Part shown: positions 4,682 to 22,496 of the stretch, piece by piece
Layout: the number at the start of each line of letters is the position of its first letter
How positions within the stretch are numbered: position 1 is the first letter of the stretch
From: a virus
DNA: 28,710 bases
Direction: 5' to 3' (one strand)
IMG/VR virus record: IMGVR_UViG_3300021373_001072
Span: 1-28,710 of that record
The notes under the pieces: model-generated
Databases searched by the model: none
What the model was told of the DNA's origin: nothing
The model's input: only the letters and a program-made list of their open reading frames with translations
Translations under genes and position numbers: made by a program

Positions 4682-5128
4682 ATGAAAGATCTTGTAAAAG
4701 AACGGTTAATACAATGGGAAGCATTAGTATTAAAGCCGTACGAATGCTCACAAGGTTACACAACAATTGGTGTTGGAAGAAATCTTGAAACAAACGGCAT
4801 ATCAAAAGATGAGGCTATGTATCTTTTAGATAATGATATAGATAGCGTAATAAAAAAATTAGATAAGCACTGGCCAGTATGGGCTACATTTCCAGAAGAA
4901 GCTAAGGCTATTATTATGGATTTAGTATTTAATATGGGAATAAACACATGGCTTTCATTTCGAAAAACCAGAGCTTATATGGAATTAGGAGAATGGGAAA
5001 AAGCGGGTAAAGAATTATTAAATTCTAAATATGCACAACAAGTTGGAAGACGTGCAATATTTAATTCAGAAGAGTTAAAAAAATGCCAACAAAAAGTTCA
5101 GACGAGCACCAGCGAAACTCTAGAGTAG
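4682..5128 (+). CDS. Endolysin, GH24 (T4-lysozyme-type) muramidase
   Basis: 148 aa from the ATG at 4682, one base after the holin stop. Hydrolyses the MurNAc-GlcNAc bond of peptidoglycan. The catalytic region reads WEALVLKPYECSQGYTTIGVG: Glu13, Cys22 and Thr28 fit the GH24 spacing E-8-(D/C)-5-T, with Cys where T4 lysozyme has Asp20. Later motifs (AIIMDLVFNMG, FNSEELKKC) also fit the family. There is no N-terminal signal-anchor segment, so export should depend on the holin next door. The last 46 bases overlap the next gene in another frame. A longer reading from 4565 would run through the holin gene and is not supported. Confidence 0.92.
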   Translation: MKDLVKERLIQWEALVLKPYECSQGYTTIGVGRNLETNGISKDEAMYLLDNDIDSVIKKLDKHWPVWATFPEEAKAIIMDLVFNMGINTWLSFRKTRAYMELGEWEKAGKELLNSKYAQQVGRRAIFNSEELKKCQQKVQTSTSETLE

Positions 5129-5535
5129 GAGCATTTGCTGAATCACTAGTACAGACTTTCTTGCTGGAATACTGCGACTTCTGTTTTCCATGTCAAGATA
5201 AACACCCAGCAGATTTAGTATGCGAGCTTGGACCCGCTATGTATACTGTTCAAGTTAAAGCTAGGAGCAAAACGCCGGAAGGTAAATATGTTTTTGTTTC
5301 TGATAATTCAAGAAATCAAAGCGAGATATATAAAAACTATCATTGTGATATTTTAGCTTTTGTATTTATGCCTGAAAAAAGAATTTTATTTAAAGCTAAT
5401 TCTAGCTCGCAAACATACTTTACTTTTGATCAAAAAATATTTAATGATAAATTAGAAATAGATTCGTTTCATGAAACATTAAAAACTTTATCTGAAGTTC
5501 CAGTCGTCCGACCGATTATAAATGAGGCTGATTAA
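5083..5535 (+). CDS. PD-(D/E)XK superfamily protein
   Basis: 150 aa. The N-terminus (GAFAESLVQTFLLE) supplies the first-helix acidic residue Glu20. HPADLVCELG carries Asp44, and MYTVQVKAR gives Gln57-x-Lys59 on the second core strand. This D...(E/Q)xK arrangement is the nuclease core of the PD-(D/E)XK fold, with Gln replacing the usual Glu. Structure-specific or nicking endonuclease is likely; the substrate is unknown. It overlaps the endolysin by 46 bp and has AGAAGAG before its ATG. Most of these genes lie in replication modules, so its place after lysis is unusual. Confidence 0.65.
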   Translation: MPTKSSDEHQRNSRVGAFAESLVQTFLLEYCDFCFPCQDKHPADLVCELGPAMYTVQVKARSKTPEGKYVFVSDNSRNQSEIYKNYHCDILAFVFMPEKRILFKANSSSQTYFTFDQKIFNDKLEIDSFHETLKTLSEVPVVRPIINEAD

Positions 5536-8087: not shown

Positions 8088-8238
8088 AAATACTGGTAAA
8101 TACGAAGTAGAGCATTACTATTTAAAAAACAGATCTGTTAAAGAACTTGAAACATTAATTAATAATCATAGTACAAAACCAAAAATTAAACTTAAAGCAT
8201 GCAGAGAGTTAGTAAGGAGAAACAAAATTGGTAAATAG
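8047..8238 (+). CDS. Hypothetical basic protein, 63 aa
   Basis: Starts inside the preceding gene. Reads MPEKIKKSVKTRNKNTGKYE, then YYLKNRSVKELETLINN and a C-terminal helix (KPKIKLKACRELVRRNKIG). It is very basic and helical after residue 27, so it may bind nucleic acid. No family recognised. The final 11 bases overlap the nuclease that follows, and its coding sequence contains that gene's Shine-Dalgarno. Confidence 0.6.
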   Translation: MPEKIKKSVKTRNKNTGKYEVEHYYLKNRSVKELETLINNHSTKPKIKLKACRELVRRNKIGK

Positions 8239-8650
8239 CCGAACAAAAGGTGCTGCATTTGAAAGAAAAATAGTTAGTTTATTAAAAGCATTATCTGATG
8301 AGCATAATGCTGATATACACATTACAAGAAACTTTGAACAACTATATAAAAAAGGTGAATGTGATATTAACTTTTTAAATTATGCTATCGAATGTAAATG
8401 CTATGCTGAAGGTAAAGGTTACAAATCTGGTTGGTGGGAACAAGTATGTACAGCAGCAGGTGATTCAAGAATTCCGGTTTTAGTTTATAAATATAATAGA
8501 AGTCCTATTGAAGTGGCTATGCCATTTTGGGCTATTATAAAAGATGAGCCAAAAGATAACGATAAAATATTTACGTGCAAATGGGAAGATTTTGTAGATA
8601 TAATAAAAAAAAATACAATTTTCCAGGCTTATGTCAATAGAGACAAATAA
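8228..8650 (+). CDS. Hjc-like PD-(D/E)XK nuclease, putative Holliday-junction resolvase
   Basis: 140 aa. KGAAFERKIVSLLKAL gives Glu12 on the first helix, KKGECDINFL gives Asp46, and YAIECKCYAE gives Glu55-x-Lys57: the resolvase-type E...D...ExK set. WWEQ at about 69-72 resembles the Gln/Trp-rich helix of phage resolvase-like enzymes. It should cut branched DNA before packaging. The start is a TTG, supported by AAGGAG at 8214-8219 with an 8-nt spacing. It overlaps its upstream neighbour by 11 bp and the next small gene by 20 bp. Confidence 0.75.
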   Translation: MVNSRTKGAAFERKIVSLLKALSDEHNADIHITRNFEQLYKKGECDINFLNYAIECKCYAEGKGYKSGWWEQVCTAAGDSRIPVLVYKYNRSPIEVAMPFWAIIKDEPKDNDKIFTCKWEDFVDIIKKNTIFQAYVNRDK

Positions 8651-11961: not shown

Positions 11962-12535
11962 AAGCAATATAAAACCATTTGTTAAACAACTTAAAAAGTT
12001 TCAGAATGTTGATATACCAAATATAACAAGAATAGCTTTAAATGAAACAGCTACAAGAGTTAAAGAATTAGAACAGGTGCAAATGCGTAAATCATTTGAT
12101 AGACCTAAACCACAGACGGTTAATAGCATATATGTACAATTTGCTAAAAAGAATTATCCAATAGCCCGCATTACATTTAGAGACTGGGCTCAAGAATTTA
12201 TACATAGAAATATAGTAGGTGGTATTCGTAGAGTAAAGAATACCGCTGTTCCTACTGTTAATGCTAGGTTAAATCAATTCGGTAACATACCAGGCAGAAG
12301 ATCAGGAGTTGTAAAAGCAAATCAGTTTAGAGCAACAATTGATGGTATCTACGGTGTATGGCAACGCACAAAAAACGGCGTAAAAATAATTCATAGGTTT
12401 GAAACTAATCCTCGTTACAATCCTATATTTCCATTTTATCGAGTAGCTAATAAAGCTGTTAAATATGTTATGCCACTTAAGTTCGAAAAAGTAGCTAAGT
12501 ATTACATCAAAAAAGCAGGTTATAAGATTAAATGA
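11945..12535 (+). CDS. Putative minor tail/tail-completion protein (gpZ-like)
   Basis: 196 aa, close to lambda gpZ in length. The pattern is that of a family annotated as minor tail proteins: a helical start ending in ALNETATRVKELEQVQMRKS, then FDRPKPQTVNSIYV, GGIRRVK, NQFGNIPG and IDGIYGVWQR. A basic, aromatic-rich C-terminus follows (PIFPFYRVANKAVKYVMP). In lambda such a protein finishes the tail before head joining, but there it lies downstream of the capsid gene; here it lies before the terminase. GGAGG at 11926 is 14 nt before the ATG; a second ATG at 11951 is possible. Family call by pattern only. Confidence 0.5.
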   Translation: MLMSVKSNIKPFVKQLKKFQNVDIPNITRIALNETATRVKELEQVQMRKSFDRPKPQTVNSIYVQFAKKNYPIARITFRDWAQEFIHRNIVGGIRRVKNTAVPTVNARLNQFGNIPGRRSGVVKANQFRATIDGIYGVWQRTKNGVKIIHRFETNPRYNPIFPFYRVANKAVKYVMPLKFEKVAKYYIKKAGYKIK

Positions 12536-12942
12536 AGTTTAGCGATTTATTAAGTATGGGTATATCATATGAAGAAAAAGTATTACATGTATTAAAAAAT
12601 AAATATCCATTAGCTAAACGAATTGAAGGGCAATTTTTAGATTATGACATATGGATTCCTGAACTACATAAAAGTGTAGAAGTTAAATACGATAAGCGAT
12701 CGGAAACAACAGGTAATATTATTATTGAATATGAAAAGAATAATAAACCTGGAGACATACTAACAACTAAAGCAAGTTATTGGTGTATACATACATCAAC
12801 AGGCTTTCTATGGATTAAGCCAATGAAAATAATAGAATGCATTCTTAGAGAAGAATGTAATAAGATAAAGGTAGGGTCAGGCAAATGTTACCTGATACCC
12901 ATATACGTGCTTAAAAGCTATTCTATGGAGCATCTGATATGA
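12532..12942 (+). CDS. PD-(D/E)XK nuclease-like protein
   Basis: 136 aa, ATGA overlap with the previous gene. Glu14/Glu15 lie on the first helix (SYEEKVLHVLKN), Asp39 in FLDYDIWIP, and Glu50-x-Lys52 in KSVEVKYD, a complete E...D...ExK core. NIIIEYE and YWCIHTSTGFLWI follow as core strands. Phages of this kind often have such a small nuclease just before the terminase; it could aid resolution of concatemers or DNA end trimming, but the substrate is unknown. Confidence 0.7.
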   Translation: MKFSDLLSMGISYEEKVLHVLKNKYPLAKRIEGQFLDYDIWIPELHKSVEVKYDKRSETTGNIIIEYEKNNKPGDILTTKASYWCIHTSTGFLWIKPMKIIECILREECNKIKVGSGKCYLIPIYVLKSYSMEHLI

Positions 12943-15396: not shown

Positions 15397-15651
15397 ATGA
15401 ATCAAGAAGAAAGAAACAAATTATTAAATAGAATAGAAAACATATCAGAAGGTGTTCAACAAGTTATTAAAATGTTAGATAAAAATCTTGTAGAATCACT
15501 TAATTATGGCACTGATGTTGAAGTTGTTATATTAACAGATATACAAAAAACTTTAATCGTAGAACAAGGATTTAATAGAAAAGAAGCAAATATTGCAATT
15601 CAGTATTTAACAGGTAGATTAACAGCTGAAGACTTTCAACAAGTTGCATAA
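15397..15651 (+). CDS. Hypothetical protein, 84 aa, first gene of the nucleotide cassette
   Basis: AAGGAG at 15385-15390 lies 6 nt before the ATG. Helical throughout: MNQEERNKLLNRIENISEGV, an amphipathic middle with VQQVIKMLDKN, and a C-terminal helical pair (FNRKEANIAIQYLTGRL, TAEDFQQVA). The C-terminal pattern resembles UBA- or HTH-like three-helix domains, which is only an impression. Its stop overlaps the next start (TAATG), so the two are coupled. Confidence 0.7.
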   Translation: MNQEERNKLLNRIENISEGVQQVIKMLDKNLVESLNYGTDVEVVILTDIQKTLIVEQGFNRKEANIAIQYLTGRLTAEDFQQVA

Positions 15652-16052
15652 TGATAGGTGACATAAAAAACTTAAACCGGTATTACAAAATATACCGGTT
15701 TATTGCTAATGCTTCAGATAATGAAAAATTACATTATCTTGAATTTCGAGCTAAGTTTATTCAAGAAGAATTAAATGAATTAATTACAGCAATTGAAAAT
15801 GATGAAGCTGATGAAGTAGTAGATGCTTTTATAGATATTATTGTTATTGCATTGGGAACACTAGATGCATTTGATGTAAATATTAAAAAAGCGTGGAAGC
15901 GAGTACATCATGCAAACATGCAGAAAAAAATAGGTGTTAAAGATACTAGGCCTAATCCGTTAGGGTTGCCTGATCTTATTAAACCAGAAAATTGGCAAGC
16001 ACCTCAACATTTTGATAATGTAGGTAAATTAAATTTTTTAGATAAGGAGTAA
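15651..16052 (+). CDS. MazG-like NTP pyrophosphohydrolase (all-alpha NTP-PPase)
   Basis: 133 aa. The metal-binding pattern is clear: QEELNEL (Glu39, Glu40, Glu43) and EVVDAFIDI (Glu55, Asp58, Asp62), followed by VIALGTLDAF. This is the EExxE...ExxD signature of the MazG/HisE/dUTPase-dimer superfamily. It cleaves (d)NTPs to NMP and PPi; the specificity cannot be read, but next to a dCMP-handling cassette a dCTPase- or dUTPase-like role is attractive. Within the first 20 codons lies an 11-bp inverted repeat (15673-15702). Confidence 0.75.
   Translation: MIGDIKNLNRYYKIYRFIANASDNEKLHYLEFRAKFIQEELNELITAIENDEADEVVDAFIDIIVIALGTLDAFDVNIKKAWKRVHHANMQKKIGVKDTRPNPLGLPDLIKPENWQAPQHFDNVGKLNFLDKE
15673..15702. 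repeat. 11-bp perfect inverted repeat inside the MazG-like gene start
   Basis: TAAACCGGTAT (15673-15683) and ATACCGGTTTA (15692-15702), with an 8-nt loop TACAAAAT. It lies 22 nt after the ATG and encodes NRYYKIYRF. It could act as an operator or as an mRNA hairpin close to the ribosome entry site. Confidence 0.7.
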
Positions 16053-16054
16053 CT

Positions 16055-16318
16055 ATGCATTCAGTATTAAGCGAAGCGGCAGCTTTACAAAAACAAAAAG
16101 CTGAAGATTACAATTCAAATGATTCAGAAGCTAAACAAGAATACTTTCCGTACGGGCATCATTCGTATTTACAAATGATTTCAACAAAAGTTAAACGTTT
16201 AGAATCAATTGCATTTAATGAAAAAAATCCTAACTTTGAATCAGCTTACGATTCAGTATTAGATTTAATTAACTATGCAAGTTTTTATGGAGCTTATTTA
16301 AAAAAACATGGAAAATGA
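16055..16318 (+). CDS. DUF1599-like protein (nucleotide-modification-associated)
   Basis: 87 aa. AAGGAG at 16044-16049, spacing 5. QKAEDYNSND, YFPYGHHSYLQMISTKVKRL and FESAYDSVLDLINYASFYGA match the DUF1599 (Nmad1) layout: a K..DY start, a K..RL helix and ES..D...DLINYA. The family is all-alpha and related to MazG-type enzymes; it is often found near genes for modified nucleotides. It overlaps the ThyA-fold gene by 11 bp. The assignment is by motif memory. Confidence 0.65.
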   Translation: MHSVLSEAAALQKQKAEDYNSNDSEAKQEYFPYGHHSYLQMISTKVKRLESIAFNEKNPNFESAYDSVLDLINYASFYGAYLKKHGK

Positions 16319-17102
16319 AAAACAATACTTTGCATTAGTTAATAAAATATTAACTGAAGGTGTAGCTAGAGATAAAGAACGTACCGGCACTGGTACTAAA
16401 AGTATATTCGGTGCACATTTAGAATTAAATGTAAAAGCTGGCTTTCCATTATTTACACATAGAAAAATATTTTATAAAGGTGTAATTGGCGAGCTAATAT
16501 CATTCTTACGCGGTCATACTAATGTTAATGATTTTAAAACATTAGGTTGTAACTATTGGGACGAATGGGCAGAGCCCGATGGAAATCTAGGGCCGATATA
16601 CGGTTATCAATGGCGTAACTATGCTGGTTTACAAATAGATCAGTTAAAAAATGTAATTGAAGAAGCTAAAGTAAATCCGGAGTCAAGAAGGTTATATGTT
16701 ACAGCCTGGAATCCAATTGATGCTGATAAAATGGCTTTATTACCTTGTTTTCACGGTTTTCAATTATTAATTCATAATAATCATTTGAATTTAGTAGTCA
16801 ATATGCGCTCGTCTGATGTAATGCTTGGATTACCCTCTGATATTTTATTCCATGCATTTTTAATGTTAGTTTTGTCTAATGAATTAGATATAACTCCTCA
16901 TAAACTAATATTTAATTTAGGCGATGCGCATATCTATAACAATCATTTAAGATTTGCTCGTATGGTTCATGAATTACAAATATTTAATCCGCCGCAAGTT
17001 CGATTGCATTATGAAGCAGGCATAAATAATTTATATCCTAACGATTTTATAATTGCAAGTTATAAACACAATGCAGCACAACATTTAAAAATTAATGTCT
17101 AA
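16308..17102 (+). CDS. Thymidylate-synthase-fold enzyme, probable dCMP (hydroxy)methylase
   Basis: 264 aa, same length as E. coli ThyA. Conserved: RTGTGTKSIFG (Arg25), YWDEWAEPDGNLGPIYG, ADKMALLPC with nucleophile Cys147, MRSSDVMLGLPS, GDAHIYNNH (His208, Tyr210) and the C-terminal DFIIASYKHN. The key oddity is Asp178 (codon 16839-16841) in LGLPSD, where ThyA has Asn177 (GLPFN). That Asn selects uracil; Asp at this place is known in T4 dCMP hydroxymethylase and makes Lactobacillus TS accept dCMP. PCFHGFQ also replaces PCHAFFQ, and the folate-side His51 of ThyA is Phe. I infer 5-methyl- or 5-hydroxymethyl-dCMP synthesis using methylene-THF. A plain but divergent ThyA is the alternative. Confidence 0.8.
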   Translation: MENEKQYFALVNKILTEGVARDKERTGTGTKSIFGAHLELNVKAGFPLFTHRKIFYKGVIGELISFLRGHTNVNDFKTLGCNYWDEWAEPDGNLGPIYGYQWRNYAGLQIDQLKNVIEEAKVNPESRRLYVTAWNPIDADKMALLPCFHGFQLLIHNNHLNLVVNMRSSDVMLGLPSDILFHAFLMLVLSNELDITPHKLIFNLGDAHIYNNHLRFARMVHELQIFNPPQVRLHYEAGINNLYPNDFIIASYKHNAAQHLKINV

Positions 17103-17559
17103 TTATTCTCATTCTTGGAATTTAAAATATTTAACACTAGCTAAAAAATTTGCAAGCTGGTCAAAAGACCCTTCAACACAAGTTGGAGCTGTAGCAATAG
17201 GTAATAAAGGCCAGGTATTATCACAAGGTTATAACGGTTTTCCCAGGAGCTTTAATGATTCACCTTTAATATATAAAGATTCTAAATTAAAAAGTAATTA
17301 TATTATTCACGCTGAAATGAATTGTATTTATCATGCAACACTGAATGGTATATCTTTAGAAGGATCAACATTATTTGTATATGGGCTTGATGTATGTCAT
17401 GAATGCGCTAAAGGTATTATTCAAGTAGGTATAAAAGAAATAGTTACTTATTCGCCAAATAAGCCTAAAGAAAAATGGATTAAAAGTTTTGAAATATCAC
17501 AAAAATTATTTAAAGAAAGCGGAATAAATTATATAAAAATAGACCAAAATAAATTTTAG
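17095..17559 (+). CDS. dCMP deaminase
   Basis: 154 aa. Converts dCMP to dUMP. Zinc and catalytic set: IHAEMN (His72, Glu74) and VCHECAKG (Cys101, Cys104), followed by IIQVGIKEIV. The start, KFASWSKDPSTQVGAVAIG, and NGFPRSFND are typical of phage and T4-like dCMP deaminases. The Pro usually before CxxC is Val here. It overlaps the ThyA-fold gene by 8 bp. Together with a dCMP-directed ThyA-fold enzyme it would split the dCMP pool between two fates. Confidence 0.92.
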   Translation: MSNYSHSWNLKYLTLAKKFASWSKDPSTQVGAVAIGNKGQVLSQGYNGFPRSFNDSPLIYKDSKLKSNYIIHAEMNCIYHATLNGISLEGSTLFVYGLDVCHECAKGIIQVGIKEIVTYSPNKPKEKWIKSFEISQKLFKESGINYIKIDQNKF

Positions 17560-17568
17560 CTATAATAT

Positions 17569-17600
17569 AACAAATCTATATAAATATCTGATATAATCGG
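17569..17600 (+). promoter_or_regulatory. Putative promoter C before the head genes
   Basis: TATAAT at 17592-17597, 24 nt before the ATG of the joiner gene, in the 62-bp gap after the deaminase. No good -35 is seen (AACAAA at 17569-17574, 17-bp spacing). It lacks the GGTATAC block, so it may be a different class, for instance late. Confidence 0.4.
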
Positions 17601-17621
17601 GTAAAGATATATTTTAAATTT

Positions 17622-18205: not shown

Positions 18206-19717
18206 ATGGCCTGGTATGATCGATTTGTAAATAATAATAAAAAAAATAAAAAAGTTTCTAAAGTAAGAAGATATGCCGGTGCAAATACAGGTAGATTATT
18301 TTCTGATTTTACTGCATCAAGTACATCAGCCGACGCTGAAATTAAAGATCAATTAAGAATATTAAGAGAAAGAAGCCGTGATCTAGCAAGAAATGATTCT
18401 TATGTAACCAGATATTTAAACTTAATGGTTAGTAATATTATTGGCGCTAATGGTATTAGACTAAGCGTTAAAGCGCGTGATTCAAAAGGCGATTTAGATA
18501 TTATCGGCAATCAAACTATTGAGCATGCATTTAAAAATTGGTCAAGAATGGGTAACTGTACATTAAATGGCCGTCAATCATTTTTAGATTGTCAAAAATT
18601 ATTTGTTGAAGCATTAATGAGAGATGGCGAAGTTTTAGTTAGACATGCTACGCCAAGTGATTCAAAATATAAATACAAAATTCAATTTTTAGAAGCAGAT
18701 CATTTAGATGAAACAAAAAATGATTTTAATCCTCAAACTAAAAACAGAATTAAAATGGGCGTTGAAGTTGATAAACATGATAAGCCAGTTGCATATTATT
18801 TATTTAAAAATCATCCATATGATAATACATATCAATCACCTAAAGAGCATATAAGAGTACCGGCTGAAGAAATTATACATGCATATATGCCTACTAGACC
18901 AGAACAAACTAGAGGCGTGCCTATGACTGCATCTGCTATGCCTCAAATAAAAATGTTAAACGGCTATATGGAGGCTGAGATTACAGCGGCTCGTGTATCA
19001 GCTGCAAAAATGGGATTCTTTACTTCGCCAGATGGTGATGGATATGTTGGTGAAGATTTTGAAGATACATATACTCCTATTATGGAAGCACAGGCAGGTT
19101 CATTTGAACAACTTCCTGCTGGAATGGATTTTAAAAGTTTTGATCCAGATCACCCAAGTACAGCATTTGGCCCATTTACAACACAAGTTTTAAGAGGAAT
19201 TGCTTCAGGTTTAAATATTTCATATCATGCTTTAACTAATGATTTAAGTTCTGTTAACTATAGTTCATTAAGAGCTGGGGCATTAGAAGATAGAGAAATG
19301 TATAAGTTATATCAACGTTTTGTTGTTGATCATTTTATGAGGCCGGTATATGAAAAATGGTTAGAAATGTCTATTTCAAGTGGCGCTATAATTATGGACC
19401 CTGATGTTAATATCCCTTTGCCAATGTCTAAATATGAAAAGTTTGCAGCTGATTCAATATTTATTGGCAGATCATTCCAATGGGTAGACCCTCAAAAAGA
19501 AATGAATGCTTCAATTGCTGGTATGCAAGCAGGATTAGTAACATATCAAGATGTTCAATCTAATTATGGAAGAGACGTTGAAGAGTTATATGAACAACAC
19601 GAAAGAGAACAAAAACTAGCTGAACAATATGGCATTAAAACAGCGTTCCAGCCATTTGGTATTAAACTGCCAATAGAGCCTGTAATTAAAGGAGGCAATG
19701 ATGGCGATTCCGAATAA
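18206..19717 (+). CDS. Portal protein, lambda family
   Basis: 503 aa (lambda gpB 533). Starts MAWYDRFVNNNKKNKK; then RSRDLARNDSYVTRYLNLMV and NIIGANGIRLSVKA, the hallmark opening of the lambda-type portal family. IIHAYMPTRPEQTRGVP and DLSSVNYSSLRAGALEDRE are also strongly conserved. It forms the dodecameric ring for DNA entry and exit at one capsid vertex. GTGAGG lies about 10 nt before the ATG. The 3' end overlaps the capsid fusion gene by about 17-20 bp, where the GGAGG for that gene sits. Confidence 0.93.
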   Translation: MAWYDRFVNNNKKNKKVSKVRRYAGANTGRLFSDFTASSTSADAEIKDQLRILRERSRDLARNDSYVTRYLNLMVSNIIGANGIRLSVKARDSKGDLDIIGNQTIEHAFKNWSRMGNCTLNGRQSFLDCQKLFVEALMRDGEVLVRHATPSDSKYKYKIQFLEADHLDETKNDFNPQTKNRIKMGVEVDKHDKPVAYYLFKNHPYDNTYQSPKEHIRVPAEEIIHAYMPTRPEQTRGVPMTASAMPQIKMLNGYMEAEITAARVSAAKMGFFTSPDGDGYVGEDFEDTYTPIMEAQAGSFEQLPAGMDFKSFDPDHPSTAFGPFTTQVLRGIASGLNISYHALTNDLSSVNYSSLRAGALEDREMYKLYQRFVVDHFMRPVYEKWLEMSISSGAIIMDPDVNIPLPMSKYEKFAADSIFIGRSFQWVDPQKEMNASIAGMQAGLVTYQDVQSNYGRDVEELYEQHEREQKLAEQYGIKTAFQPFGIKLPIEPVIKGGNDGDSE

Positions 19718-22496
19718 AGGTATGAAAGCCGAAGCTGAAAAAGGATTAGCTTGGCGTAAAGAATTTGGCAGAGGCGGGACACGTATTGGTGTTACTCGTG
19801 CAAATCAAATTAAAAACGGGGTCGATTTATCGGAGTCAACTATCAAAAGAATGTACAGTTATTTTTCTAGGCATGAGGTTGATAAGCAAGCTAAAGGGTT
19901 TAGACCAGGAGAGGAAGGCTTTCCAAGTAATGGCAGGATTGCGTGGGCATTATGGGGAGGTGATCCAGGTTACACATGGTCAAAAAAAATAGTTGAACAA
20001 ATGAAAAAAGAAGATGAGCGTAAATTAGAAATGCGCCCATATCCTAATGAACATGCTGCTCGTATAGAAGACCCTGAGCAGTTTGATAGTTTTAGAAGAA
20101 AAAATAATGAATTTAAAACTGGTATACATGTAATACATGGTATTAAAGATAATGAAAGATTAGTACAAAGTATAAGATTTGATTCAGATATGTATACTCC
20201 TGAAGAAGCAAAAGCATGGTTAGAAAGAAATGAATTTGAATATATTAAATTTGAAGATGCTATAGAAGAAAGAGCAGTTTCTGAAAAAACTGAAGAAGCA
20301 TTAAAAAATAAATTAACAGAACACCATGAAGAAGTAGGTGATGTTCAAAGTAAAAGAACAACGCTTGCTGTTTTAAAACAAGTTTATGAACGCGGGATTG
20401 GAGCATTTAATACAAATCCAGGCTCTGTTAGACCCCAAGTTAGTAATGCTAATCAATGGGCAATGGCTCGTGTTAATAGTTTCCTGTATGCTTTACGCAA
20501 TGGAAAATATAGAAGTGGGAAGCATGATACTGATTTGCTTCCTAAATCACACCCTTTATCATCGAAAGAGGAAAAAGCTATGAAAGATAAAGAAGATAGA
20601 CATATCCTCAACGTGAATGAAACTGATGATTCTGTAATCATTGAATTTTCAAAGCACCATGAGGATAAAGAAGAGGAAGAAAATGTTGACGCAGTTTCTT
20701 CTTATCATGAAGATGAAGAAGAGGAAAGAAAAGTTGTTGATTTACCATTAAGGTATAGAACAATTGATCTTTCTAAAAATTCATTTATTGATGAAGAAAA
20801 AAGATTAGTTCGTATTGGTGTTTCATCTGAAGAACCAGTTGAACGCTCTTTTGGCATGGAAGTTTTAAGCCATGCAGAAGGTGATGTAGATATGGAATTT
20901 GTATCATCTGGTAGAGCTCCGTTTTTATTAGACCATGACATGTCTAAACAAATTGGAGTGATAGAAGAATTTAAACTTGATGAGGCAGCAAAAAGGACTA
21001 TTGCTGTTGTTAGATTTGGCAGATCAGCACTTGCTCAAGAAGTTTTTCAAGATGTAGTTGACGGAATTCGTATGAATATAAGTGTTGGCTATAAAGTAAA
21101 TAACTTAGAAAGAGTGAAAGATAACGATCAAATGCTTTATAAAGCTCAATGGACTCCGCTTGAAGTATCAAGTGTTTCTGTGCCAGCAGATCAAAGCAGA
21201 TTAGTCGGAGTTGGACGCTCTGCTAAAATTAATAAGGATATTATTATGACTGAAGAAAAAAAAGATATTAATCTTGACGAAGTCAGAACTAAAACTCTTG
21301 AAGATGCTAAAGCTGAATTTAAAAGAAACTCGAAAGAGATTATTGATTTAGCAGTTAAGCATGATAAAAGAGATTTAGCTGATAACGCAATTAAAGAAGG
21401 TCTTTCAGTTGAAGAGTTCAGAGGTGTATTATTAAATGAAATTTGTAATGATAAACCACTTGAAACTGCTGAAATTGGTATGACTCAAAATGAAGTGAGA
21501 GAATTCTCACTAGTTAGAGCAATTAATGCTTTAGCAAATCCAACTGATAGAAAAGCTCAAGAAGCTGCTGCTTTTGAATTTGAATGTTCAAATCAAGCTG
21601 CTAGAGAACAAGGAGCAACAGCTCAAGGAATTATGATTCCAGCTGATGTACTTGGAAACTGGAGCAAAAGAGATATTAATTCATCTGACGACTCAACTTT
21701 AATCCCTCAGGATTATAAAAGTGGGGATTTCATTGATGTCTTACGTAACTCATCTAGTGTTATGCAAGCGGGCGCGACTATGCTAAGAGGACTCTCTGGC
21801 TCGGTCGTAATTCCAAAGAAAACAGCTGCTTCATCAGCTGCTTGGATTGCAACTGAAGGTAATGCTGCTTCTGAAAGTGAATTTACATCAGGTAGTGTAA
21901 CTATGTCTCCTAAAGTAATCGGCGCGTTTACAGATGCTACCAGATTACTTTTACAACAATCTTCATTAGATGTTGAGAACTTAATCAGAGACGACTTAAC
22001 ACAATCTATAGCTACTGCTATTGATTTAGGTGCTTTAGCTGGTTCTGGTTCAAGCGGCCAGCCAACTGGTATTGCTAATACTTCTGGTATTAACACAACT
22101 ACATTTGCTGCTGCTAATCCAACATACGCTGAAATTATTGGTATGGAATCTGCAGTTGCTGCTGATAATGCATTAGTTGGAAACTTAGCTTATATATGTA
22201 AACCAGCTGATTATGGTACATTAAAAACAACTTCAAAAGATAGCGGAAGCGGTCAATTTGTAGTTGAGCCAGATGGAAGAATGAATGGCTATAATGTTAT
22301 CAGATCAAATCAAGTAACTTCAGGTGATTTTTACTTTGGTAATTTCTCTGATTTACTTATTGGTATGTATGGCGGCCTTGATATAACAGTGGACCCATAT
22401 GCGTTAAGCACATCAGGTGGAGTAAGAATTATTGCTTTACAAACTGTTGATGTAGCTGTACGTCATGCGGTATCTTTCTGTAAATCAAGCGACTAA
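19701..22496 (+). CDS. Four-domain fusion: two accessory domains + prohead protease + HK97-fold capsid
   Basis: 931 aa from the ATG at 19701 (GGAGG spacing 5; the ATG at 19698 is too close). Domain 1, about 1-110: EAEKGLAWRKEFGRGGT, FSRHEVDKQAKGFRPGEEGF, IAWALWGGDPG. Domain 2, about 200-290: KQVYERGIGAFNTNPGSVRP, QWAMARVNSFLYALR. Domain 3, about 345-510, S78-type protease: His412 in FLLDHDMSKQIG and Ser461 in NISVGYKV. Domain 4, from about 516, major capsid: delta helix (DEVRTKTLEDAKAEF), GIMIPADVLG, SVVIPKKTAASSAAWIATEG and DDLTQSIATAIDLGALAGSG. A linker rich in Asp/Glu (KHHEDKEEEENVD) lies before the protease. Fused protease-capsids are known; the two extra front domains are common in phage head genes but of unknown function. 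In-frame ATGs with Shine-Dalgarnos at 20580 and 21246 may give separate products. Confidence 0.9.
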   Translation: MAIPNKGMKAEAEKGLAWRKEFGRGGTRIGVTRANQIKNGVDLSESTIKRMYSYFSRHEVDKQAKGFRPGEEGFPSNGRIAWALWGGDPGYTWSKKIVEQMKKEDERKLEMRPYPNEHAARIEDPEQFDSFRRKNNEFKTGIHVIHGIKDNERLVQSIRFDSDMYTPEEAKAWLERNEFEYIKFEDAIEERAVSEKTEEALKNKLTEHHEEVGDVQSKRTTLAVLKQVYERGIGAFNTNPGSVRPQVSNANQWAMARVNSFLYALRNGKYRSGKHDTDLLPKSHPLSSKEEKAMKDKEDRHILNVNETDDSVIIEFSKHHEDKEEEENVDAVSSYHEDEEEERKVVDLPLRYRTIDLSKNSFIDEEKRLVRIGVSSEEPVERSFGMEVLSHAEGDVDMEFVSSGRAPFLLDHDMSKQIGVIEEFKLDEAAKRTIAVVRFGRSALAQEVFQDVVDGIRMNISVGYKVNNLERVKDNDQMLYKAQWTPLEVSSVSVPADQSRLVGVGRSAKINKDIIMTEEKKDINLDEVRTKTLEDAKAEFKRNSKEIIDLAVKHDKRDLADNAIKEGLSVEEFRGVLLNEICNDKPLETAEIGMTQNEVREFSLVRAINALANPTDRKAQEAAAFEFECSNQAAREQGATAQGIMIPADVLGNWSKRDINSSDDSTLIPQDYKSGDFIDVLRNSSSVMQAGATMLRGLSGSVVIPKKTAASSAAWIATEGNAASESEFTSGSVTMSPKVIGAFTDATRLLLQQSSLDVENLIRDDLTQSIATAIDLGALAGSGSSGQPTGIANTSGINTTTFAAANPTYAEIIGMESAVAADNALVGNLAYICKPADYGTLKTTSKDSGSGQFVVEPDGRMNGYNVIRSNQVTSGDFYFGNFSDLLIGMYGGLDITVDPYALSTSGGVRIIALQTVDVAVRHAVSFCKSSD
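20568..20582 (+). promoter_or_regulatory. Internal ribosome binding site before the protease domain
   Basis: GAGG at 20568-20571 (within AAAGAGGA) is 8 nt before the in-frame ATG at 20580. It would start MKDKEDRHILNVNETDD and give a 638-aa protease-capsid product. It falls exactly between accessory domain 2 and the acidic linker. Confidence 0.45.
21234..21248 (+). promoter_or_regulatory. Internal ribosome binding site before the capsid domain
   Basis: AAGGA at 21234-21238 is 7 nt before the in-frame ATG at 21246. The product MTEEKKDINLDEVRTKTLED would be 416 aa, the usual length and start of a free HK97-type capsid protein with its delta domain. Confidence 0.55.

Follow-up and report, generated by a model that had tools for sequence, protein, structure and literature searches.

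The gene at positions 16308-17102 of a marine phage sequence probably encodes a dCMP C5-methylase that is derived from thymidylate synthase (TS) ThyA and forms 5-methyl-dCMP; the probability of this reading of the enzyme is estimated at about 0.68. The analysed stretch of DNA as a whole, here called the window, is the IMG/VR virus record IMGVR_UViG_3300021373_001072 (28,710 bp, 33% GC). Directly observed are the residues, the clade, the gene order, the replacement by gp42 in the same slot and the missing decoration genes; from these we infer what the enzyme acts on, what it makes and where the product goes. dCMP is the likely substrate over dUMP on the basis of Asp at position 177, the loss of His147, the single D-type clade and the replacement by gp42. 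The original prediction had named either 5-methyl- or 5-hydroxymethyl-dCMP as product; dCMP as substrate held up, while the even choice did not, since the hydroxymethylase signature is absent, methylase features are present and decoration genes are missing.

The gene is part of a cassette (Table 1) whose MazG-like gene stands upstream in D-type ThyA (D-ThyA) cassettes as well as in gp42 cassettes. The neighbours had been described as MazG-like and DUF1599-like; the first assignment was confirmed, and the second was abandoned as the protein encoded at 16055-16318 had no match in Pfam. The earlier listing also overlooked the dCMP deaminase gene that overlaps the 3' end of the D-ThyA gene. This deaminase contains the motifs of Zn-dependent dCMP deaminases, i.e., the allosteric GYNG at 45, HAE at 72 and CHEC (CxxC) at 101, and its Trp128 aligns with Trp128 of the Xp12-group enzyme, which was proposed as contact for the 5-methyl group (PMC12088426). 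Judged from a reference in the same paper, its best PDB match would be the dCMP/dCTP deaminase of chlorovirus PBCV-1.

Table 1. Features of the nucleotide cassette, with positions in the window.
Feature	Position	Strand	Evidence and remarks
MazG-like (PRA-PH) nucleotide pyrophosphohydrolase	15651..16052	+	Pfam PF01503 E=3e-11; PHROG 671; first gene of the cassette
Small all-alpha NTP-pyrophosphohydrolase-like protein	16055..16318	+	PHROG 18404 'hydrolase' E=3e-16; 11-bp overlap with next ORF
D-type ThyA, predicted dCMP C5-methylase, 264 aa	16308..17102	+	Pfam Thymidylat_synt PF00303 E=7e-75
Leu144 codon; third residue ahead of the catalytic Cys, where T4 dCMP hydroxymethylase has Asp145	16737..16739	+	Alignment; PMC6400193
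Catalytic Cys147 codon and adjacent Phe148 codon (His147 in E. coli)	16746..16751	+	Alignment
Asp178 codon; base-selecting position, Asn177 in E. coli	16839..16841	+	Alignment; invariant in relatives
dCMP-type deaminase	17095..17559	+	Pfam PF00383 E=1e-18; 8-bp overlap with D-ThyA gene; best PDB match 7fh4
62-bp gap ahead of head-tail gene; no decoration genes, unlike gp42-type relatives at the same spot	17560..17621	+

The enzyme belongs to the ThyA superfamily, as shown by the PF00303 match and by the catalytic Cys, Arg, His and Tyr, and its catalytic and phosphate-binding residues are intact. Bacterial thymidylate synthases are the closest solved structures, and the AlphaFold model (pLDDT 94) gives a TM score of 0.95 to ThyA of both E. 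coli and M. tuberculosis. The alignment to E. coli ThyA is gap-free from Cys146 to Asn177 and places Asp178 opposite Asn177, Phe148 opposite His147 and Ser177 where E. coli has Phe176. This ungapped alignment puts Asp178 at the predicted base-contacting position, where genuine ThyA carries Asn. Asp178 and Phe148 are kept in 30/30 loci of close relatives (81-99% identity) and are therefore attributable neither to chance nor to sequencing error; farther phage ThyA matches from the same search carry Asn and His at these two positions. Arg25, Cys147, His208, Tyr210 and Asp178 are invariant in 17 diverse relatives. The replaced Asn, the changed motif after the catalytic Cys and the retained catalytic residues had all been claimed from the sequence beforehand, and each claim proved correct. 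In the MetaGPA study residues 177 and 147 were those that best separate the TS of cytosine-modified from those of unmodified virus contigs (PMC8670742), and work from 1992 on Asn177, as cited there, reported that Asp at 177 shifts the preference to dCMP.

The phylogenetic comparison with ThyA, gp42 and Xp12-type enzymes that had been proposed was carried out with a TS tree calculated after removal of columns 143, 147 and 177. The 38 D-ThyA rows form one group (support 91, not starred) beside the 49 rows of N-type ThyA, as a sister group and not inside it, and this group is separate from T4 gp42 and from the Xp12-group enzymes of DoCa6 and PaMx74, which stand in for Xp12 and Bosa and form a separate branch of their own. 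D-ThyA sequences were sampled partly by motif, and the extent of the clade may differ from that seen here. Its cultured members are Edwardsiella phage KF-1, Vibrio phage VPMS1, Pseudoalteromonas phage PH1 and Dickeya phage Amaethon; in three of the four (KF-1, PH1 and Amaethon) a deaminase fused to a dGTP-diphosphohydrolase domain is encoded nearby. The marine relatives L207, L217 and L218 have no deaminase nearby, which led us to drop the assumption of a deaminase requirement for every D-ThyA; these relatives show that a D-ThyA can act without a deamination step.

The search with the deaminase revealed relatives with the gene order MazG-(DUF)-X-deaminase, in which X is a homologue of T4 gp42 (44-54% identity, motif CTNAV...ND). 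Both types occur in closely related phages: L115 carries gp42 in the slot although its terminase is 95% identical to that of the window, and the MazG-like protein of the gp42-type locus L108 is 93% identical to that of the window. The terminase tree requires three or more switches of TS type, located on well-supported branches, whereas the deaminase tree forces just one; the deaminase therefore tends to move with its TS. The AU test for monophyly of the D-ThyA-linked deaminases gave p=0.12. Two distantly related enzymes are swapped within one pathway, and this exchange supports a dCMP-directed function independently of the Asp.

Gp42 is a hydroxymethylase, and the same slot could mean the same product, which counts against the methylase. 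The corresponding alternative, that the D-ThyA is itself a dCMP hydroxymethylase yielding 5-hydroxymethyl-dCMP and naked 5hmC DNA, draws on this common slot and on the Asp177 that is also found in T4 gp42. Hydroxymethylation was described to have a signature composed of Asp (or Glu) three residues before the catalytic Cys (Cys-3; Asp145 in T4), a Ser two residues before a conserved Tyr and the absence of the C-terminal tail, and T4 D145N makes no 5-hydroxymethyl-dCMP (PMC6400193). Among 103 tabulated sequences Cys-3 is Asp in every gp42-type sequence, in SPO1 dUMP hydroxymethylase and in gp28 of phage AXL3, and it is Leu in the window enzyme and in all D-ThyA sequences, as in ThyA. The window enzyme has the Asp at 177/179 in common with the T4 type; besides Leu144 it has Pro in place of Ser94, it keeps Trp84/Trp87 and a full-length C-terminal tail, and it groups with ThyA away from the gp42 clade. 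Hydroxymethylation is thus improbable. In the Xp12-group enzymes Cys-3 is Asn and position 83 is Phe; a dCMP methylase can therefore do without Leu and Trp, which speak only against hydroxymethylation. AXL3 gp28 (L174:1943-2752), which is annotated as thymidylate synthase, has Asp both at 177 and at Cys-3 and is predicted from these residues to be a dCMP hydroxymethylase and not an enzyme of the dTMP pathway.

The genes downstream of the deaminase differ between the two types in the same direction. In the 23 resolvable D-ThyA cassettes the head-tail gene follows the deaminase directly, with gaps of 51-76 bp, and none of them has a gene that could decorate a hydroxyl. All resolvable gp42 cassettes (28/28) have extra genes after the deaminase; these encode a methyltransferase, belong to a module of three or four genes or are other candidates for a role in modification. 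Such a pattern fits a methylase, since a methyl group has no hydroxyl that could be decorated. All three independent swaps agree with this pattern, with p=0.25 in a sign test, in which three pairs cannot reach significance.

In the gp42 cassettes the three- or four-gene module (L107:3918-7758; L119, L122, L124, L131) consists of modA (phrog_13881), modB, the PLP-enzyme-like modC and the all-alpha modD, which are candidate base-hypermodification genes. In Pfam, no match was found for modA, modB and modD, and for modC a sub-threshold PALP match only. A presumed resemblance of modD to thymine pyrophosphorylases was dropped, as it had no Pfam or PDB support and the model was poor. In many marine relatives a SAM methyltransferase follows gp42 and the deaminase (L111:5401-6168 and kin), and gp31 of AXL3 (L174:4261-5085) is a SAM methyltransferase inside the TS cassette; AXL3 DNA was reported to resist enzymes with G/C in their sites (PMC7504290). 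The row at L142:4343-9919 comprises gp42, the deaminase, a UDP-sugar epimerase-like protein, a possible glycosyltransferase, a UDP-galactopyranose mutase and a DNA C5-methylase, which suggests a galactofuranose-type decoration of 5hmC.

In the mechanism proposed for the methylase, Asp178 would bind and protonate N3/N4 of cytosine and Cys147 would attack C6; methylene-THF would be the one-carbon donor, with the same folate giving the hydride as in ThyA, and 5-methyl-dCMP and DHF would be the products, not 5-hydroxymethyl-dCMP. In L226 of the D-ThyA clade TS, deaminase and a DHFR-like gene follow each other in a row, as expected if DHF is released. The MazG-like protein encoded upstream probably feeds dCMP from dCTP. 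In an Xp12-type scheme part of the product would enter the DNA as 5-methylcytosine, and the deaminase of the overlapping gene would convert 5-methyl-dCMP/dCTP to dTMP/dTTP. The virion DNA may carry modified cytosine, and the deaminase allows dTMP as an alternative fate. The missing dNMP kinase leans to the dTMP fate, and the gp42 exchange and the MetaGPA association lean to 5-methylcytosine in DNA. A further point against the methylase is that neither DHFR nor dNMP kinase is encoded in the complete relatives, and host kinases may phosphorylate 5-methyl-dCMP poorly.

A variant that agrees with the methylase reading at the level of the enzyme holds that 5-methyl-dCMP is made solely for deamination to dTMP and that the DNA stays unmodified. 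It concerns the fate of the product, whereas the probability given at the outset concerns the enzyme, and the two estimates overlap. The variant draws on the deaminase, which overlaps or abuts the TS gene in all cassettes of the family, travels with the TS type and retains Trp128, on the Xp12 precedent of 5-methyl-dCTP deamination (PMC12088426) and on the kinase-free phage, whose dTMP would be accepted by the host TMP kinase. Against these points, the partners of gp42 resemble DNA decoration genes and the exchange points to a modified base, Asp177 is tied to modified contigs (MetaGPA, PMC8670742), and the three marine relatives lack a nearby deaminase; we regard it as a minority possibility. 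It is doubtful whether a dUMP-free thymidylate pathway in reversed order, with dCMP methylated first and deaminated second, is the main job of the cassette; by the same logic the sister gp42 cassettes could make 5-hydroxymethyl-dUMP via 5-hydroxymethyl-dCMP, with the decoration modules acting on that base.

A dCMP deaminase followed by a TS is the textbook route to dTMP. The enzyme might accordingly serve ordinary dTMP supply, using dUMP made by the deaminase and merely tolerating Asp178; its fold and most of its residues are those of ThyA, and Wu 2025 (PMC12629253) treats the deaminase of the phage family as dUMP supply. This is highly improbable given the shift toward dCMP reported for Asp at 177 (work cited in PMC8670742), the invariance of the Asp across a deep viral clade and the replacement of the enzyme by gp42. 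The dCMP C5-methylase is the preferred reading.

With 52% identity to that of CRP-821/822, the terminase of the window indicates a position of the phage close to the CRP-822-type roseophages (PMC12629253). Relatives with terminal direct repeats are complete at 33,217 bp (G002, 127-bp repeat) and 32,710 bp (G003, 99-bp repeat), and it is mainly tail genes that the window is missing compared with these. Glycosyltransferase, dNMP kinase, DHFR, ThyX and DNA polymerase were found neither in the window nor in G002, and the first two were also absent from G003, extending to complete genomes the earlier statement that the window has no glucosyltransferase or dNMP kinase. Used as a DNA-level query against isolated phages, the cassette gave no match. 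A scan of a genome collection for cellular relatives gave a single match, a Negativicutes MAG contig, and no host was therefore inferred. The window further encodes a 932-aa capsid ORF (19698-22496), whose counterpart in G006 consists of two separate ORFs (268 and 588 aa), which suggests a fused protease-capsid gene. Similarity to PD-(D/E)XK or Holliday-junction-type nucleases was seen at 5083-5535 and 8228-8650, and a small ORF at 12532-12942, to which no function was assigned, may belong with these. The cassette-free roseobacter phage CRP-821 of the same family has DNA cytosine methyltransferase genes (L156:7224-8983), possibly an alternative route to cytosine modification.

A viral D-type ThyA clade with cultured members, annotated as ordinary thymidylate synthase, is hereby marked as likely dCMP-modifying. 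Two dCMP enzymes that replace each other in a single slot and differ in their downstream genes constitute a natural experiment on 5-methyl- versus 5-hydroxymethyl-cytosine, and the analysis suggests that 'dCMP deaminase + thymidylate synthase' in a phage need not imply dTMP via dUMP. It was already known from MetaGPA (PMC8670742) that residues 177/147 distinguish virus contigs with modified cytosine and that PRA-PH and dCMP deaminase domains accompany them; new are the separate D-ThyA clade, the one-slot exchange with gp42, the way this exchange correlates with decoration genes, and the predicted reaction, a methylation and not a hydroxymethylation.

Compared with E. coli ThyA (PF00303), the window enzyme has the same fold, Arg25, Trp84/87, Leu144, Cys147, His208, Tyr210 and C-terminal tail, and it differs in Phe148, Ser177, Asp178 and its separate viral clade. 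T4 gp42 resembles it in the Asp at the base-selecting position, and gp42 homologues occupy its slot in sister phages; it is unlike gp42 in having no equivalents of Asp145 and Ser94, in its tail, in an identity of about 25% and in its position outside the gp42 clade. The TS of modified contigs in MetaGPA (eLife 2021, PMC8670742), compared by description, are alike in the differential residues and the co-occurring domains and unlike in their carbamoyltransferase and 5hmC product, as no carbamoyltransferase is present here. CRP-822-type roseophages (Wu 2025, PMC12629253) have similar structural genes and genomes of 29-34 kb, with a dCMP deaminase recorded in subgroups III and V, while the isolates CRP-821 and CRP-811 are without the cassette. 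Neither a dCMP-directed TS nor gp42 is discussed in the passages of that paper considered here, and the present analysis suggests a role of the deaminase other than dUMP supply. In Xp12 all cytosine is 5-methylcytosine and a deaminase converts 5-methyl-dCTP to dTTP (Wang and Ehrlich, 1982; Kuo et al., 1982; both as cited in PMC12088426). The Xp12/Bosavirus-Pamexvirus group, seen via DoCa6 and PaMx74, matches the window in Asp177, in a TS gene that overlaps a dCMP-type deaminase gene with a nucleotide hydrolase gene upstream, and in deaminase Trp128; its enzymes differ in Asn at Cys-3, Pro at 147, Phe at 83, an insertion and a separate branch, and PaMx74 and AXL1, unlike the window, have a dihydrofolate reductase gene close by.
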